Below, piece after piece: positions 19,972 through 26,312 of a DNA stretch of 60,752 bases. Source of the stretch: Ruminococcus sp. (GTDB taxonomy: Bacteria; Bacillota; Clostridia; Oscillospirales; Ruminococcaceae). Position numbers and translations under genes: made by a program. The notes below the pieces were generated by a model that worked only from the letters and a program-made list of their open reading frames with translations, had not been told where the DNA came from and made no database searches. Numbering within the stretch: the first letter of the stretch is position 1; each line of letters begins with the position of its first letter. Location of the stretch: positions 1-60,752 of the forward strand of contig JAFUAO010000018.1 of NCBI GenBank assembly GCA_017460665.1, in the 5' to 3' direction.

Positions 19972-22900
19972 ATGACTAAAAGCAAGACCTTGCGGAGGGC
20001 TGCCGCCTCTCTTATGGCGCTCTCCGTTACAGCCTGCACTGCACTGTCCGGGATCCCGGCTGCTCTGCCAAGCGCAAACGCTGTCTCCTCCACCTCAAGA
20101 GTGCTGGTGGACCTAAACCGCAACGACGGACGTTCGGCCCTTTATGCGCCCAACGCTGAGAACTGGATCTGGGACGGCGGCACGTTCAAGACCTCTACCG
20201 GCGTGACCGTCAAGATCTCTAACGGCAGCGGCAGCGGTTCGCTTGACTGCACCAACAACAAGAAGCTCCAGAAATACGACGGGACTACCGCTTATATCGC
20301 TGCAGACGGCGTGTTCAACAAGGACAACGACTCCAGCGGCGCCCTCACTGTCGAGCTCTCCGGCCTTTCAAACGGGACACACTCCTTCTCCGGCTGGCAC
20401 GCCTGCCTCTACGGGAACGTGGACCCAAGCACTCTGAAGATCTCAGTGAACGGCTCAGTCAAGCAGACAGGTGTCGCCTGCCCCAACAACGCAACTACTG
20501 ACAACGCCGCAGGACGCTCCTATGTGGAGTTCACAGGCACCTCCGCTACGATCAAGATCGAGGGCGAGAAGAACAAGTCCTACAGCAACGCCTGGCTCAA
20601 TGCTTTCGAGATCGACGGCGCAAGCCCCTTCGACTCTATCTCGAAATTCACTCCCGTGGATCAGGAGAAGCACCTGAACATCAGCGACGGCCTCAACTGG
20701 ACCGCCGGCAGCGGCGCCTCCTCCCACGACGTATATATCGGCACTGACAAGAACGCCGTTTTCAATGCGACCAAGTCCTCCCCCGAATACAAGGGCACTG
20801 TCTCAAAGCCCCACTTCGATCTGGACAGCAGCTACTCATCTCTCCCCACTTATTACTGGCGTGTGGACGAGGTGAGCTCCAATGGCACCGTGAAGGGCGC
20901 TGTTTACTCCTTCCAGGTCAACAGACTGGCCTTCCCTACTGCTGAGGGCTACGGACGCTGGGCTAGAGGCGGACGCGGCGGTTATGTTTACCACGTTACC
21001 AACCTCAAGGACTCCGGCGACGGCTCTCTCCGCTACGGCATCGAGGAGCTCAAGGGCGCAAGGACCATCGTGTTCGACGTGGGCGGTATCATACAGCTAG
21101 GCAGCAAGCTCACTATCCCGGCCGACGGCGGAGATGTTTACGTTGCAGGACAGACTGCTCCCGGAGACGGTATCACTCTCACCTATTGGGGCTTCGGACT
21201 GCTGGGCTGCGATGACGTCATCGTCCGTGACGTCCGTGTCCGCCCCGGCGACAGAGGTCTCAGCGGCGTGAACGAGGTCTCCGACGGTATGGGACTTTCC
21301 AGCTCCAACCACTGTATCATCGACCACTGCTCGATCTCATGGTCAACTGATGAGGGCTTCTCTTCACGCTCTGCATCGAATATCACCTTCCAGTGGAACA
21401 TCATCGGCGAGGCTCTCCACGACTCGATCCACTACAACGCTTCAGACCGCACAAAGACTGAGACCCACGCCTTTGCCGGCTCTATAAGCGGAAATATAGG
21501 CAGCTTCCACCACAACCTCCTTGTAGACTGCACAGGCCGTAACTGGTCTCTGGCAGGAGGTATGGAGAACGACGGCGTCACCTACGGCGGTGCTGTAGAC
21601 ATAAGGAACAACGTTGTCTACAACTGGCGTGACAGGACTACTGACGGCGGCGTTCGCAGGCTCAACTTCGTGAACAACTACTACAAGGCCGGCGCTGAGT
21701 CCAACACCGGGCTGCATATCGTTCAGATGGACGGTAATGAGCTGAACACCAGCGACTGCCAGAAGATGTACGTTTCCGGAAACATCATGACGGATACCTC
21801 CGGCAACCAGATCCTGAAGGCCTCAGATGACGCTTGGAGCAAGGGCAAGGCCAAGGCCAACCCCAACTTGGGAAGCTCCAATAACGACGTAAAGCTCAGC
21901 TCAGCCTTCTGTGAGTCCTATGTGGAGACAGACTCCGCTGAGAACGCATTCAAGAGAGTTACTGCTTCCGGCTCAGGCGCCGGCGCAAACGTGCCTGCTC
22001 TGGACTATATCGACAGCAGATACTACACCGAGGTGACTAAGGGCTCCTACACCTACACCGGCAGCAAGCAGCACCTCAAGGGCATCATCGACAGCCAGAA
22101 AGACTGCGGCGGCTACCCCACCTCCAGCAACTTCAAGGGCGGTACTGCTCCTACCGATACCGACAGAGACGGTATGCCCGACGATTGGGAGAAGCTCCAC
22201 GGACTGGACCCCAACAACGGCTCCGACGGCGCTGTCGTTTCCCTTTCCGGCGACGACTACACCAACCTTGAGATGTACCTCAACGAGCTGGCAGGAGATC
22301 CCGTCCAGTTCAACGGTGCTCCTCCCCGCTCCGCCTTTGAAACGATCGAGGCCGAGGACTACGACTCAGAGTCCGGCACAAAGAACGAGGACGGCGAGGG
22401 CGAGACTCACGTTGCTTACATCGAAAGCGGCGACTACATCTCATTCCGCAACGTGAACTTCGAGAACGGCGCTAAGTCCTTTACTGCAAAGATCGCAGGA
22501 AATGCCTCCTACATCGACCTCTACACCGACACGATCGGCGATACACCGGCTGCTACAGTACCCTTCGGCGGAAGCGGCAGCTGGAGCAACTGGCAGGAGC
22601 TGACTGTCAATATCCCCACGATCTCCGGCAAGCACACCCTCTATTTGGTGTTCCGGGGCGGCGAGGGCTATCTGCTCAATATCGACGATCTCGTATTCGG
22701 AAAGGAATACGTTCCTCTAAACGGCAAAAAGCTGACAAATGTCAGCGTGGCTGAGGGCGCTGAGCCTTATAGCTGGAGGATCGTGGAGGACGCTGCTGTA
22801 GACTCGCCTGTTTTCGGCGACAGAGCCTTCACCTTCACATCCCTCCCTGACTCCCTCATCGGAGCAGAGCAGCTCATCACCTCCTGCAGCGCTAAGGCCT

Positions 22901-23481
22901 TCACCGGCGACGCTGCTACCTTTACGGCCGCAGAGGACCTGTCACTGTACATCGCTCTTGACAGCCGTATGCCGAAGGTCCCCGAATGGCTGAGCTCCTA
23001 TGAGCCGACTGAGGAGACCGCCCTCGCCAGCAACGACCTGACCTTCCTGCTGTACAAGCTGGACGTTGCTCAGGGCCAGACCGTCACTATCGGCGGAAAT
23101 GAAGAGGCCTACAGCGTGGTGAACTACACCGTGTTCGCTGCCGATCAGAAGGCCGCCGTGACTACCACAGTCCCCGAAACGACTGCTCCTCCGGTAACTA
23201 CCACAGCTCCGGAGCCCACTGAGCCGCCTGTTACCACTGAGCCTGACACGCCTGTCTCAGACCTGGTGGGCGACGCCAACGTAAACGGCGTGGTGGATCT
23301 GACCGATGCTGTAGCGATCCTGCAATACGTTGCTCTTCCGGCTAAATACGGCCTTACAGAACAGGGCAAGATCAACGCAGACTGCTGCGATACGGGAGAC
23401 GGTATCTCCGGCAAGGACGCACTGGCTATCCAAATGCTCGATGCAGGTCTCGTTGAGAGCCTGCCGATCTACTCAGAATAA
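19972..23481 (+). CDS. Secreted pectate lyase with CBM6-like module, shared C-terminal module and dockerin
   Basis: A 1169-residue enzyme. Order: signal peptide (about 1-37), a beta-rich carbohydrate-binding-like region (about 42-215), an FN3-like region (about 220-320), a PL1-type beta-helix core starting FPTAEGYGRWARGGRGG near residue 323, a DTDRDGMPDDWE calcium-type segment near residue 725, a CBM6-like module (about 787-918, EAEDYDS and SGDYISF), a module shared with the lyase at 12986 (919-1060), a Thr/Pro linker and a type I dockerin (GDANVNGVVDLTD and DTGDGISGKDA). Core marks are IDHCSISWSTDE and FHHNLLVDCTGRN. It should depolymerise pectate outside the cell within a cellulosome. The start has AGGGGGA seven bases upstream. 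It is divergent from the sodium-pump operon and convergent with the GTPase gene. Confidence 0.92.
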   Translation: MTKSKTLRRAAASLMALSVTACTALSGIPAALPSANAVSSTSRVLVDLNRNDGRSALYAPNAENWIWDGGTFKTSTGVTVKISNGSGSGSLDCTNNKKLQKYDGTTAYIAADGVFNKDNDSSGALTVELSGLSNGTHSFSGWHACLYGNVDPSTLKISVNGSVKQTGVACPNNATTDNAAGRSYVEFTGTSATIKIEGEKNKSYSNAWLNAFEIDGASPFDSISKFTPVDQEKHLNISDGLNWTAGSGASSHDVYIGTDKNAVFNATKSSPEYKGTVSKPHFDLDSSYSSLPTYYWRVDEVSSNGTVKGAVYSFQVNRLAFPTAEGYGRWARGGRGGYVYHVTNLKDSGDGSLRYGIEELKGARTIVFDVGGIIQLGSKLTIPADGGDVYVAGQTAPGDGITLTYWGFGLLGCDDVIVRDVRVRPGDRGLSGVNEVSDGMGLSSSNHCIIDHCSISWSTDEGFSSRSASNITFQWNIIGEALHDSIHYNASDRTKTETHAFAGSISGNIGSFHHNLLVDCTGRNWSLAGGMENDGVTYGGAVDIRNNVVYNWRDRTTDGGVRRLNFVNNYYKAGAESNTGLHIVQMDGNELNTSDCQKMYVSGNIMTDTSGNQILKASDDAWSKGKAKANPNLGSSNNDVKLSSAFCESYVETDSAENAFKRVTASGSGAGANVPALDYIDSRYYTEVTKGSYTYTGSKQHLKGIIDSQKDCGGYPTSSNFKGGTAPTDTDRDGMPDDWEKLHGLDPNNGSDGAVVSLSGDDYTNLEMYLNELAGDPVQFNGAPPRSAFETIEAEDYDSESGTKNEDGEGETHVAYIESGDYISFRNVNFENGAKSFTAKIAGNASYIDLYTDTIGDTPAATVPFGGSGSWSNWQELTVNIPTISGKHTLYLVFRGGEGYLLNIDDLVFGKEYVPLNGKKLTNVSVAEGAEPYSWRIVEDAAVDSPVFGDRAFTFTSLPDSLIGAEQLITSCSAKAFTGDAATFTAAEDLSLYIALDSRMPKVPEWLSSYEPTEETALASNDLTFLLYKLDVAQGQTVTIGGNEEAYSVVNYTVFAADQKAAVTTTVPETTAPPVTTTAPEPTEPPVTTEPDTPVSDLVGDANVNGVVDLTDAVAILQYVALPAKYGLTEQGKINADCCDTGDGISGKDALAIQMLDAGLVESLPIYSE

Positions 23482-26091
23482 AAAAACACCGGAGGGGAGC
23501 TCAGCGGCTCCTCTCCGGTTTTTTAAGTCCTCCTGGGTATATTCTCTCATGGCACGCTCGGCCTCCTCCACCCTCGCACGGAGCTCCGCCGCAGGGATCC
23601 TCATGGCGCCGTTGCCCAAAATGATCATCTGCTCAAGTCCGTCAGAGGTGGCCACCAGCACACGGTGCTTCCTTGAAAGCTCGTGGGAGACACGCTCGAT
23701 GTAGCTGTCTGCGGTCTCGGACTCACGGGTGTAGACGATGCTGATCCCGCAGTATTCCTCAACCTCACGGTGCTTTCCGCTGACACGGTAGGCATCGAAG
23801 ACAAGGATCAGCTCACACCCGGCGTAGCCACGGTAGCTGCACAGCCGGTTTATCAGCTCAGCTCTGGCGGCGTCAAGGCTCTCCTGAGCGATCTTTTTCA
23901 GGTCCTCCCAGGCGAAAATAATATTGTACCCGTCCACGAGAAGGTGATCCGGACCTTCATACTCCGGCAGCTTCACCGGCTTGGAGTAGTCTGAGGGCTC
24001 CCTTTCCCGGCGGAAGGCCCGCCTTGGGTCACGATCCAGCTTTCCGTAGGTCCGCTCGAAGATCTCCGTCAGCTCCTTGTCAGAAGCCATGACCGCAGCT
24101 CCGCTCCGGGGCCTCTCACGCCTTTCCTCAGACGGTGCCTCCGGAGGATCTTCCGCCAGAGCCGAGGGCAGGTGCATATGCTCCGGCACCTGATCCCAGG
24201 GCACCACGAAGCCTGCTCCGTGGGCGCAGAACACCGAATCAGCGCTGTTTTCAAGATCTCCGGCGCAGTCGTAGCCCATGGCGCCGATGACCTCCTGAGA
24301 GTTATGGCACTCCCGGTATCCGGCGTTCACGCAGCTCAGCCGCCCTCTGCCCTTGGTGTAGCTTATGACCTGGCTCTGGTAGCCCGAGAGCTCCGAAACG
24401 GGAGCACTTCCGCAGATCAGGGAGTTTTCTCCCACGGTCTCGGGAGCGGAGAACTCCGCCGACATATGCTGTAGGTCGGCTATGGCCCGGCCGACGCACT
24501 CCGACGGCACCTCCAGCTCATAGTCATAGTAGGGCTCCAGCAGGACGCTCTCGGCGCTGCGGAGGCCCTGCCTCACCGCCCGGTAGGTGGCCTGACGGAA
24601 GTCTCCACCCTCGGTGTGCTTAAGGTGAGCCCGCCCGGAGGCCAGTGTTATGGACATATCCGTTATCGGGGAGCCGGTCAGGGCTCCCACATGGATCTTT
24701 TCTTCAAGGTGGGTCAGGATCAGTCTCTGCCAGTTCCGGTCAAGATCGTCCTCCCGGCAGGAGCTGGAAAACCGCAGGCCGCTGCCCCTTGGGAGCTCCT
24801 CCAAGATTAGGTGGACCTCGGCGTAGTGGCGCAGAGGCTCGTAGTGGCCCACGCCCTCGACCCTCCCACGGATCGTTTCCTTGTAGGCGACTGCTCCGCC
24901 GCTGAACGTTACGGACCAGCCGAAGCGCTGAGCGATCACCTGTGTCAGGACCTCCAGTTGGACCGCTCCCATCAGCTGGATATGGATCTGGCGGAGCTGC
25001 TCGTTCCACAGGATATGGAGCTGGGGATCCTCGTCCTCAAGTATCCGCATACACCGCAGGGCCTCGTGGAGATCCACGCCCTCCGGGAAGCCGATCCGGT
25101 AGCTCATGACCGGCTCCAGCACAGAGCGCTCTGAGTTGCGTATGCAGCCTATCCCCTGTCCGGCGTAGGTGCCGTCCAGCCCCGTCACAGCGCAGACCTC
25201 TCCGGCCTTTGCCAGCTCGGCGGTGCGGAACCTCTCGCCAGAATAAAACCGCAGAGAGCTGACCTTAGCGGTGATCTGTTCCCCGTCGGAACCGGTATAG
25301 CTCAGCTCGCTGCGGACCCTCAGCTCTCCGCCCATAATCTTCATGTGGGTCAGGCGGCTGCCCTTGCTGTCGTAGGAGACCTTGTAGACCTTCGCCCCGA
25401 ACTCCGGACTGCGCTGAGGCTCCCTTGTATAGCGGTCGGCGGCGGCAAGGAGCTCCTCCACGCCCTGCAATTTCAGTGCAGAGCCGAAAAAGCATGGGAA
25501 GATCCGGCGCTCCGCAATGGCCTTTGCCATGAGCTCGTCGGAGAGCTCTCCCCTTTCAAGGTACTCCTCCATCAGCTCCTCGCTCAGTGAGGCAGCCTCC
25601 TCGAAGAGCTCCTCCCCGGTCAGGGAGAAGTCCGCACACAGGGGCGAGAGCTGGCGGCGAAGCTTTTCAAGGACGGCGGAGCGGTCAGCTCCCACCAGGT
25701 CCATTTTGTTCACGAAGATGAACACCGGCACCTCGTACTTCCTCAGCAGCTTCCACAAGGTGGAGGTATGGCTCTGGACGCCGTCTGTTGCACTGATCAC
25801 CAGCACCGCATAGTCAAGGACGTGCATGGTGCGCTCGGCCTCGGCGGAAAAGTCAACGTGGCCCGGCGTGTCCAACAGGGTCAGCTTCGTTCCGCCGTAT
25901 TCCAGCTCCGCCTGATGAGCGAAGATCGTGATCCCACGGCTGCGCTCGATAGCGTCCGTATCAAGAAATGAGCTGCCCTTGTCCACTCGGCCGAGGCTCC
26001 TTATCTGCCCGGAGGTATACAGCATCGCCTCCGCTAAGGTGGTCTTTCCCGAGTCGACATGGGCGGTTATCCCAAGTGTTATAGTTTTCAT
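23473..26091 (-). CDS. TetM/EF-G-like GTPase fused to a C-terminal YacP/Rae1-like NYN nuclease domain
   Basis: An 872-residue fusion. Residues 1 to about 640 follow ribosomal protection proteins of the TetM/TetO type: AHVDSGKTT (G1), RGITI, DTPGHVDF (G3), NKMD (G4), then domain IV marks HLKHTEGGDFRQATYRAVRQ and SYTKGRGRL. After a charged Pro/Arg linker, residues 713-872 form a NYN (PIN-like) domain very like Bacillus YacP/Rae1, which cleaves mRNA in the ribosomal A site. The acidic residues are in LLVDGYNIIFAW, LILVFDAYRV, ETADSYIE and VATSDGLEQ. The start at 26091 gives the usual MKTITLG beginning. Its 3' end overlaps the pectate lyase gene by nine bases. Tetracycline resistance cannot be assumed; a translational-rescue factor is equally possible. 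Confidence 0.9.
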   Translation of the reverse strand: MKTITLGITAHVDSGKTTLAEAMLYTSGQIRSLGRVDKGSSFLDTDAIERSRGITIFAHQAELEYGGTKLTLLDTPGHVDFSAEAERTMHVLDYAVLVISATDGVQSHTSTLWKLLRKYEVPVFIFVNKMDLVGADRSAVLEKLRRQLSPLCADFSLTGEELFEEAASLSEELMEEYLERGELSDELMAKAIAERRIFPCFFGSALKLQGVEELLAAADRYTREPQRSPEFGAKVYKVSYDSKGSRLTHMKIMGGELRVRSELSYTGSDGEQITAKVSSLRFYSGERFRTAELAKAGEVCAVTGLDGTYAGQGIGCIRNSERSVLEPVMSYRIGFPEGVDLHEALRCMRILEDEDPQLHILWNEQLRQIHIQLMGAVQLEVLTQVIAQRFGWSVTFSGGAVAYKETIRGRVEGVGHYEPLRHYAEVHLILEELPRGSGLRFSSSCREDDLDRNWQRLILTHLEEKIHVGALTGSPITDMSITLASGRAHLKHTEGGDFRQATYRAVRQGLRSAESVLLEPYYDYELEVPSECVGRAIADLQHMSAEFSAPETVGENSLICGSAPVSELSGYQSQVISYTKGRGRLSCVNAGYRECHNSQEVIGAMGYDCAGDLENSADSVFCAHGAGFVVPWDQVPEHMHLPSALAEDPPEAPSEERRERPRSGAAVMASDKELTEIFERTYGKLDRDPRRAFRREREPSDYSKPVKLPEYEGPDHLLVDGYNIIFAWEDLKKIAQESLDAARAELINRLCSYRGYAGCELILVFDAYRVSGKHREVEEYCGISIVYTRESETADSYIERVSHELSRKHRVLVATSDGLEQMIILGNGAMRIPAAELRARVEEAERAMREYTQEDLKNRRGAAELPSGVFLF
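23488..23525 (+). terminator. Terminator of pectate lyase B, inside the convergent GTPase-nuclease gene
   Basis: ACCGGAG and CTCCGGT with an inner GGAGC/GCTCC stem, then TTTTTT. The hairpin lies within the last codons of the minus-strand gene. Confidence 0.85.
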
Positions 26092-26115
26092 AGCTTCTTC
26101 CATTCTCTTTCGGCT

Positions 26116-26256
26116 CTACAGGCCGTTTTTTTGCAGGAACTCCCTGAAGATCCCGGCCAGCTTATCGGGGAGCCCTGCGTACATCATGTGGTCCTCGTCT
26201 AAATAGACGTTTATCTGAGTCTGGCCCACCTTAGCGAGCCTCCCATAGTTTTCCAT
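26116..26256 (-). CDS. 46-residue small protein upstream of the GTPase-nuclease fusion
   Basis: A short ORF that starts MENYGRLAKVGQTQINVY. The longer in-frame reading of 98 residues is rejected because the promoter at 26284-26312 lies inside it and AAGGGG sits five bases before the ATG at 26256. Between promoter and the large fusion gene this is the first coding sequence, ending 24 bases before the fusion start. The protein is mixed polar with a possible amphipathic C-terminal helix (KLAGIFREFLQKNG). I do not recognise a family. It could be a leader peptide or a small partner protein. Confidence 0.65.
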   Translation of the reverse strand: MENYGRLAKVGQTQINVYLDEDHMMYAGLPDKLAGIFREFLQKNGL

Positions 26257-26283: not shown

Positions 26284-26312
26284 ATTATACACCGGAAGGG
26301 ACGCAAAGTCAA
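26284..26312 (-). promoter_or_regulatory. Sigma-A promoter of the small ORF and GTPase-nuclease gene
   Basis: On the minus strand TTGACT (26307-26312), a 17-base spacer and TATAAT (26284-26289), 27 bases before the small ORF. Confidence 0.85.

Follow-up and report, generated by a model that had tools for sequence, protein, structure and literature searches.

A TetM/EF-G-like GTPase fused to a Rae1-type NYN nuclease domain may replace separate Rae1 in Clostridia

Rae1 (YacP) of Bacillus subtilis is a free NYN-domain protein of about 170 aa, with spyTA, bmrCD and S1025 among its known targets. Factors of the TetM/EF-G type act on 70S ribosomes, and in Tet ribosomal protection proteins the S-P-V/A tip of loop III in domain IV has a role in drug displacement. 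Rae1 has been listed as capable of attacking mRNA in the A site (PMC12320835), while one sentence of Atkinson 2015 (PMC4342817) places Tet proteins with a YacP-like NYN domain in ten Clostridiales species and suggests a resistance-linked RNase. These printed fusions have the same architecture as the protein described here, a Tet/EF-G-like protein running into a YacP-like NYN domain, but that passage files them as Tet proteins, gives a function as a suggestion and draws no link to the loss of standalone Rae1. The preliminary description of the present locus knew of no described function for such a fusion; nothing in the literature listings contradicts this, although the fusion itself had thus been reported, together with the resistance-linked suggestion. 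What is new beyond the printed fusion is a distinct GTPase subfamily with unfused sisters, most simply a single origin of the fusion, the near-exclusion of standalone NYN and the absence or decay of rae1 at its usual locus.

The window (the whole 60,752-nt stretch of Ruminococcus sp. DNA that was analysed) contains the fusion as a single ORF of 872 residues, in which Pfam places the EF-G/TetM-like domains G to V ahead of a YacP/Rae1 NYN domain (Table 1). This agrees with the preliminary description, which had seen a TetM/EF-G-like protein continuing into an NYN domain whose acidic residues are preserved; the domain is there, with 142 matched residues and not the 160 first given. The ATG at 26091 is a better start than that at 26103, since it has GGAAG 5 nt upstream and the matches in relatives begin at residues 3-5 (17 of the 18 same-genus genomes with a one-stretch match, residue 1 in the other). 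The terminator-like hairpin takes in roughly the last 15 codons, and two relatives (L032 and L090) stop before it, at residue 856 of the present protein. A short ORF that precedes the gene here had no counterpart in the 13 relatives searched for it, and Rfam gave no match within the window. In three of the 13 relatives a different ORF ends 3-9 nt upstream of the fusion gene.

Table 1. Positions in the window of the fusion gene, its domains and nearby signals
Feature	Position	Strand	Remarks
Fusion gene	23473..26091	-	872 aa from ATG 26091, stop included
Longer frame of the fusion ORF	23473-26103	-	876 aa from ATG 26103
Promoter-like site TTGACT-17-TATAAT	26284..26312	-	some 190 nt ahead of ATG 26091; assigned by consensus only
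GTPase (G) domain	25426..26088	-	residues 6-226; AHVDSGKTT, RGITI, DTPGH, NKMD present
Domains II and III	24904..25398	-	residues 236-400; alignable with EF-G and Tet proteins
Domain IV (EFG_IV)	24553..24897	-	residues 403-517; Pfam
Domain IV tip loop I	24811..24855	-	residues 417-431; family pattern GxGHFEPLRHYAEVH
Domain IV tip loop II	24658..24693	-	residues 471-482; family pattern HxGVLTGSxxTD
Domain IV tip loop III	24595..24636	-	residues 490-503; family pattern GxxHxKHTxGGDFR; TetM-type GLYYSPVSTPADFR
Domain V (EFG_C)	24298..24546	-	residues 520-602; Pfam
Family C-terminal extension	24169..24318	-	residues 596-645
Linker	23947..24168	-	residues 646-719; poorly conserved except one motif
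Linker motif ELxxIFERTYG	24043..24075	-	residues 677-687
NYN_YacP (Rae1-type) nuclease domain	23518..23943	-	residues 721-862; Pfam, structure matches, conserved residues
Terminator-like hairpin	23488..23519	+	between two convergent genes; overlaps last codons of the fusion

The nuclease half matches NYN_YacP (PF05991; residues 721-862) with E 3.2e-48 and 164.3 bits against a curated cut-off of 24.6, and is homologous in sequence to the B. subtilis YacP (Rae1) structures 5mq8 and 5mq9 (E 1e-25). It is by this homology to solved structures that an NYN fold, the check named in the preliminary description, is assigned to it. D724, N727, D770, D799, E803, D821 and Q825 are invariant in 52/52 fused rows (50 genomes) and 41/41 standalone rows, counts from which the mis-cut fused row of L263 (L263_F) was excluded; a degenerate NYN domain was rejected on this basis. 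The acidic residues among them (D724, D770, D799, E803 and D821), which we take to be catalytic, are also found in the printed B. subtilis alignment, although Rae1 stands by itself there, whereas the fusion has the domain at the C-terminal end of an 872-aa GTPase. dN/dS for the NYN part was 0.03-0.10 against four relatives, values which are rough because dS is mostly above 1. R835, present in 41/41 standalone rows yet in just 35/52 fused rows, counts against a replacement of Rae1 by the fusion. NYN relatives also occur in plasmid and phage collections (23 and 12 records, respectively; three plasmid matches were opened).

The fusion is widespread in Clostridia, gut bacteria included, in genomes of many families. 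Of 23 genomes from the same genus, 21 have all or part of it, as one stretch in 18, as two overlapping pieces in G009 and as partial matches at contig ends in G016 and G021, while G015 and G022 gave no fusion match. An assembly error, of which absence from close relatives was to be the sign in the preliminary description, was rejected, as the fusion is present in many assemblies including isolates. In a class sample of 293 genomes, 103 had the fused and 91 the standalone form, with a single genome (G290) having both where 32 were expected by chance, and 100 having neither, so that rae1 has been lost also without the fusion, a point against the replacement reading. Fused and standalone were called mostly by open-frame length; manual calls were made for G078, G174, G178, G179 and G209, where the frame is interrupted or runs off a contig (taken as fused), and for G292 (342 aa) and G227 (160 aa), both taken as standalone, and second NYN matches of G146, G196 and G225 fell below the cut-off and were not counted. 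Of the 103 fused genomes, 102 were without a separate intact NYN and, with three GTPase candidates scored per genome, all 103 without a separate sister GTPase. The 38 genomes of the order of G059, 18 of which are also in the class sample, gave 25 fused and 13 with an intact standalone form, one having both and one neither. Fisher values for such counts ignore kinship. Independent pairs read from a tree of MrnC, RlmB and SigH (36 of the 52 stretches L323-L374) were opposite in 7/7 cases (p 0.016); genomes lacking both forms were kept out of this test, so that the unfused partner has rae1 by selection.

The usual site of the free gene shows the same division. NYN lies between rlmB and sigH in 10/10 standalone genomes whose stretch covers the two flanking genes, and in G290, the genome with both forms, rae1 is likewise kept there, whereas in 12/12 readable fused-only genomes the interval is without an intact rae1, which is either absent or broken. 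Relics of rae1 were recognised between rlmB and sigH in five fused genomes (G059, G696, G697, G698 and G703); additional NYN fragments in G696, G697 and G703 were scored as relics and not as intact genes though some exceed the cut-off, that of G697 reaching 107 bits in a 115-codon frame with the start of the domain missing. Same-family genomes without the fusion have rae1 whole, between rlmB and sigH in G085, G691, G693 and G699, and after rlmB in G702, where sigH is outside the stretch. The single NYN match of the present genome is the fusion itself, on contig C96, with an mrnC-like gene on C61; none lies between rlmB and sigH, a position that is usual for the free gene, not universal, and not a trait of the domain. 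With regard to mrnC, the standalone NYN is located away from it in five of the 16 standalone-only genomes searched (G082, G105, G126, G226 and G328).

Since fused and standalone NYN are near-exclusive and the readable fused genomes have no intact rae1 at the usual locus, we consider it probable (roughly 60%) that the fusion acts as an mRNA endonuclease of the Rae1 type, dependent on translation and permanently joined to a TetM/EF-G-like GTPase from a separate subfamily, and that it replaces separate Rae1. The near-universal loss of the separate enzyme in fused genomes suggests that the cutting of mRNA on ribosomes was taken over by the fusion. In such a scheme the GTPase would dock at the ribosomal factor site and bring the nuclease to ribosomes, the family-specific tip of domain IV would probe the decoding centre on ribosomes whose A site is accessible, the nuclease on its linker of about 75 residues would move into the A site once GTP is hydrolysed and domain IV released, and the NYN domain would cut the mRNA there, with decay and ribosome rescue starting. 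As the decoding site would scarcely hold domain IV together with the nuclease, the likely order is a hand-over from one to the other, or else the nuclease acts on an adjacent ribosome. A bolder version, which we put forward only tentatively, is that this is a GTP-switch-gated ribosomal nuclease in which the tip reads the ribosomal state and hydrolysis hands over the A site, the same being done in trans in other Clostridia by the unfused sister and free Rae1. Rae1 would then be working with a GTPase that has so far gone unrecognised. A fused lineage with a decaying free enzyme points to a GTPase-assisted route, for which the unfused sister GTPase is the candidate partner.

These unfused sisters, which share 41-49% identity with the fusion (mostly over residues 9-645), the same tip loops and the C-terminal extension but are without linker or NYN domain, were found in 21/293 genomes: 15 with a separate rae1, six without any NYN and none with the fusion. 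The 21 genomes were listed by hand with three candidates scored per genome, G221, whose copy is fragmentary, being left out. The six NYN-free genomes among them indicate that this GTPase can function independently of a nuclease, which counts against the tethered-nuclease reading and together with the long and poorly conserved linker would fit two separate jobs joined only for co-expression, the GTPase being an EF-G-like accessory factor and the NYN domain acting as free Rae1. We think this unlikely, as the tree is explained most simply by a single origin of the fusion, which has since been retained over many families, as nearly all fused genomes are without a separate intact NYN and all are without a separate sister GTPase, and as the linker has a conserved motif. 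This motif was counted in 186 records, equal to 170 different linker-NYN stretches, and a search elsewhere in the present genome gave one more match (E 0.86). For the alignment 80 loci were fetched and 43 tried, nine of which were discarded because the matched range is interrupted by an in-frame stop; L263_F and L223_F are on long branches outside the fused clade.

Another proposal would be an rRNA or tRNA maturation factor, with the GTPase in ribosome assembly and the NYN domain trimming rRNA, a role suggested for NYN domains by Anantharaman and Aravind, as cited in Atkinson 2015 (PMC4342817). The NYN gene of a C. difficile record does adjoin rlmB, a 23S rRNA methyltransferase gene, near a gene with an RNase III domain. 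However, Rae1, which among studied proteins is the closest relative, has been described as targeting mRNA in translation, 100/293 genomes are without any NYN_YacP match, and the action of TetM/EF-G-like factors on 70S ribosomes also speaks against it, making a role in maturation improbable.

The GTPase half was compared with Tet proteins and EF-G. Its G domain matches GTP_EFTU (residues 6-226, E 6.5e-52, 176.3 bits against a cut-off of 26.5) and has the G1-G4 motifs and the His after DTPG that mark translational GTPases, with the motif columns mostly invariant and the key residues invariant in 35 aligned sequences, while EF-G_D2 and EFG_III score just under the Pfam cut-offs. Domain IV is the best-conserved domain of this half, and in the extension Y596, C599, Y611, D616, S623, F625, C626, G629, W636 and H644 are conserved in at least 86% of each group (56 fused and 22 unfused rows). 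With EF-G the fusion shares the common domains, the GTPase motifs and the length of loop II, but it scores 291.5 bits against the EF-G (TIGR00484) cut-off of 659.4, is separate in the tree from the EF-G rows (support 100; three EF-G rows), has other tip residues and adds the C-terminal extension and NYN domain. With TetM and TetO it shares the domain order G-II-III-IV-V and, by eye only, an extension C-terminal to domain V, but all three tip loops differ and the fusion falls in a separate clade. Loop III has S494-P495 in 9/9 Tet-type rows (four of them scored, all above the tet_protect cut-off, the others assigned by the tree), where the family has x494-K495-H496 (60 rows: K in 59, R in one; H in 60/60); seven other Tet-like rows are also without S-P and share H496. 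By sequence comparison, the GTPase half forms a subfamily distinct from the Tet resistance proteins and has a conserved domain IV tip peculiar to it.

This bears on the printed suggestion of a ribosomal protection protein, against tetracycline or another drug, to which the NYN domain would add an RNase step (Atkinson 2015, the one sentence in PMC4342817). The overall likeness to TetM and TetO (tet_protect, NF012153, E 4.7e-121; TetM, E 5e-68) is in agreement with it, as is the name 'TetM/TetW/TetO/TetS family tetracycline resistance' given to one relative by NCBI. We nevertheless regard it as quite improbable, since the fusion reaches 405 bits against an NCBIfam cut-off of 775 (two unfused sisters, at 450 and 456, are also below it), lacks the P495 of the Tet-type rows, belongs to a separate clade and stands in for rae1; two fused genomes that were opened, G160 (L235) and G258 (L240), carry a Tet protein above the curated cut-off besides the fusion. 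Plain tetracycline resistance was rejected on the tet_protect score and the tip differences, and these comparisons favour translation quality control, so the preliminary view of a translation-linked nuclease factor gains support as far as comparison goes, from the replacement of standalone Rae1 and the missing TetM S-P-V tip; its guess that relatives are named 'translation factor GTPase' proved true of one opened record. As at least one such protein is publicly named as tetracycline resistance, resistance counts in gut commensals would be inflated if the name is wrong and common.

While nucleases acting at the ribosome are often toxins, the sole point for an effector that arrests translation in phage defence or in the manner of a toxin, such a role is very improbable, as PADLOC models (E 0.001) matched neither the fusion (0 families) nor one unfused GTPase, the fusion occurs in many families and no convincing conserved partner gene accompanies it. 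ORF clustering around 21 fused and 22 unfused loci returned the GTPase itself as the recurring cluster, with no convincing conserved neighbour apart from it. Other recurring neighbour ORFs were, by eye, mostly shadow frames on the antisense strand. ORFs resembling ABC transporters are repeated near five unfused and three fused loci.

The GTPase and nuclease domains lie in one open frame (see the table), in which the Pfam cut-offs are passed by GTP_EFTU, EFG_IV, EFG_C and NYN_YacP and narrowly missed by domains II and III, and for the NYN half there is a match (E 1e-25) to the solved structure of B. subtilis YacP (Rae1); this agrees with the domain composition proposed in the preliminary description. 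Residues are numbered from the ATG at 26103, and the likely start is the ATG at 26091, as had been proposed, since GGAAG is found 5 nt upstream and the one-stretch matches from the same genus begin at residues 3-5 in 17/18 cases (residue 1 in 1/18). Among 23 same-genus genomes the fusion is found in one stretch in 18, in two pieces in one, partially at contig ends in two and not in two, and it is also present in Ruminococcus flavefaciens isolates such as FD-1 and 007c, a recurrence which excludes chance or assembly error as its source. The 1.49 Mb contig L044 (JAMPAJ010000001.1), titled Alistipes, has a fusion 71% identical to that of the window, and is probably a mislabelled Ruminococcus MAG.

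Table. Coordinates of the fusion gene, its linker motif and neighbouring features in the window
Feature	Coordinates	Strand	Remark
Open frame of the fusion	23473-26103	-	876 codons
Linker motif ELxxIFERTYG	24043-24075	-	
Last ~15 codons of the fusion	23473-23520	-	run through the terminator hairpin
Small ORF (MENYGRL...)	26116-26256	-	46 codons; ends 24 nt before the fusion start
Convergent secreted-protein-like ORF	19972-23481	+	1169 aa; lyase-like with dockerin-like end, by eye only

Replacement of Rae1 by the fusion is well supported. The single NYN match in the window's own genome is the fusion, and in a class sample of 293 genomes the NYN domain was found in 193 (fused 103, standalone 91), with both forms in only one genome (G290) versus 32 expected by chance (Fisher 2e-20, kinship ignored); both states occur within six families (f35, f36, f39, f40, f59 and f63). 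The window's order has NYN in 51/147 genomes, as 50 long frames, one broken frame and no standalone gene. A phylum sample gave NYN matches in 136/249 genomes, 16 of them fused and none with both as judged by frame length, and 11 of these 16 belong to five families of other classes than that of the window. The cleanest comparison is the order of the fused genome G059 (38 genomes, 18 shared with the class sample), as rae1 is present in nearly all of its genomes that lack the fusion: 25 genomes are fused, 13 have an intact standalone gene, one has both and one neither, and rae1 is thus kept in 12/13 unfused genomes versus 1/25 fused genomes.

A C. difficile record has the gene order cysS, an RNase III domain gene which we take to be mrnC, thyX, rlmB, the NYN gene (rae1), sigH and tuf. 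We looked for mrnC in 25 fused genomes, 16 standalone genomes and the one with both forms (42 in all, chosen for this purpose), and its surroundings were retrieved in 39. Where rlmB and sigH were both in the stretch, the NYN gene was located between them in 10/10 standalone genomes and in G290, and rae1 was absent or broken in 12/12 fused-only genomes; the remaining fused genomes, including the window's own, were left out for broken synteny or too short a stretch. In the six remaining standalone genomes NYN is within 1.5 kb of mrnC (G231, surroundings not fetched) or away from it (G082, G105, G126, G226 and G328), and hence the rlmB-sigH locus is usual rather than universal. The rlmB-sigH gap of G059 contains a decayed rae1, recognised by matches (46 and 64% identity) that are not in the same frame, one of them with six stops, and the longest frame there is 48 codons. 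Pieces of rae1 were also present in this gap in the fused genomes G696, G697, G698 and G703, the least decayed being the two pieces in different frames of G697, while same-family relatives without the fusion have an intact rae1 between rlmB and sigH (G085, G691, G693 and G699) or after rlmB, in a stretch where no sigH was seen (G702). The C. difficile record L292 (NZ_CP149721.1), labelled "plasmid", contains cysS, rlmB, the NYN gene, sigH, tuf, rplK and other core genes, and is therefore probably a piece of chromosome; 12 Clostridioides records with an NYN match were counted, and gene content was examined in one.

A tree built from MrnC, RlmB and SigH (36 rows) implies approximately 11 changes of the fused state, at least 8 of which fall on well-supported branches. 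Shuffled labels give little more (12.3), which indicates frequent gain or loss of the fusion, with horizontal transfer a possible route. Independent pairs on this tree were opposite in 7/7 cases (p 0.016), but as every row has at least one form, the unfused partner has rae1 by selection, and the test demonstrates only the absence of rae1 from fused partners. The NYN tree (95 rows) gathers the fused domains in a single clade (SH-aLRT 94), except for two long-branched rows, L223_F and the mis-cut L263_F, and these sequences suggest one fusion event, with modest support within the tree of this short domain. A free NYN gene of 173 aa in G226 (L354:4290-4808) falls within the fused clade (SH-aLRT 80), although this genome has the unfused type of GTPase; the gene is not near mrnC-rlmB, and is possibly a fission product or kin of the donor.

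The NYN half is conserved: Asp724, Asn727, Asp770, Asp799, Glu803, Asp821 and Gln825 are invariant in 52/52 fused rows (50 genomes) and 41/41 standalone rows, in line with the intact acidic residues noticed earlier, although Arg835, found in 41/41 standalone but 35/52 fused rows, counts against full conservation. Compared with four relatives (L032, L090, L034 and L049), dN/dS was 0.03-0.10 for the NYN part, 0.05-0.12 for residues 5-602 and 0.10-0.37 for the linker, all rough values because dS was mostly >1, and undefined in a few short segments. The linker, ~75 residues between the extension and NYN, is poorly conserved except for the motif ELxxIFERTYG, present in strict form in 107 and in loose form in 167 of 186 fused records (98 and 151 of 170 different sequences), and altered in several families. 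The strict motif was absent from the unfused GTPases and free NYN genes examined, and among other examined ORFs of at least 100 codons occurred in L096 alone, a split fusion; it may be a binding motif.

A quick tree of 80 GTPase rows united the 39 fused rows (SH-aLRT 98) inside a larger clade with a support of 100, which they share with 22 unfused sister rows from 21 genomes. These sister rows are not supported as a group (45), and 16 Tet-like and three EF-G rows fall outside the larger clade. Against the NCBIfam tet_protect profile (cut-off 775 bits) the fusion reached 405 bits, and the scanned pair of unfused sisters 450 and 456. Domain IV has three tip loops, each strongly conserved across the 60 family rows and different from those of Tet proteins, with mean identity of 0.75 for domain IV, 0.92 for loop I and 0.62 for the G domain. 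The S-P-V position of TetM is x-K-H in this family, position 495 being Lys in 59 rows and Arg in one, whereas it is Pro in 9/9 Tet-type rows; seven more Tet-like rows, below the tet_protect cut-off wherever a score was taken, lack S-P and have His496, and therefore the histidine is not unique to the family. The C-terminal extension (596-645, with Cys599, Cys626, Trp636 and His644) is common to 56 fused and 22 unfused rows, and looks like the TetM C-terminal helix, by eye only.

With three candidates scored per genome, the unfused sister GTPase was found in 21/293 genomes, 15 with standalone rae1, six without NYN and none with the fusion (7.4 expected). Among unfused genomes it is weakly associated with rae1 (15/90 with versus 6/100 without; p 0.02, uncorrected). 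Within genus g47 alone, some genomes carry the fusion, G691 and G693 have the two parts as separate genes, and G085 has rae1 without the GTPase. The fusion stands in for both separate parts and hence, by the Rosetta-stone argument, both would act in one process. TetM/EF-G-like factors place domain IV in the ribosomal A site. Rae1 is described as capable of attacking mRNA at this site (PMC12320835). We view the fusion as a GTPase-tethered Rae1: most simply, and as its architecture suggests, the GTPase half would bring the nuclease to the ribosome, and the two could occupy the A site in turn, with the order of steps a guess.

The portions of Atkinson 2015 (PMC4342817) consulted describe Tet proteins with a YacP-like NYN domain in ten Clostridiales species and suggest a resistance-linked RNase. 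The matches listed included no further paper evidently concerned with the fusion, and the fusion is not treated in the portions consulted of the candidate paper PMC7180214; replacement of rae1 by the fusion may have been noted before. Two unannotated records from human faeces that are filed as phage (MT835563.1 and MT835514.1) contain NYN_YacP-like stretches 60% and 52% identical to that of the window. The small ORF has no counterpart upstream of the fusion in 13 relatives. The fusion and the convergent ORF have a terminator region in common, and in the relatives L032 and L090 the fusion ends before the terminator hairpin.
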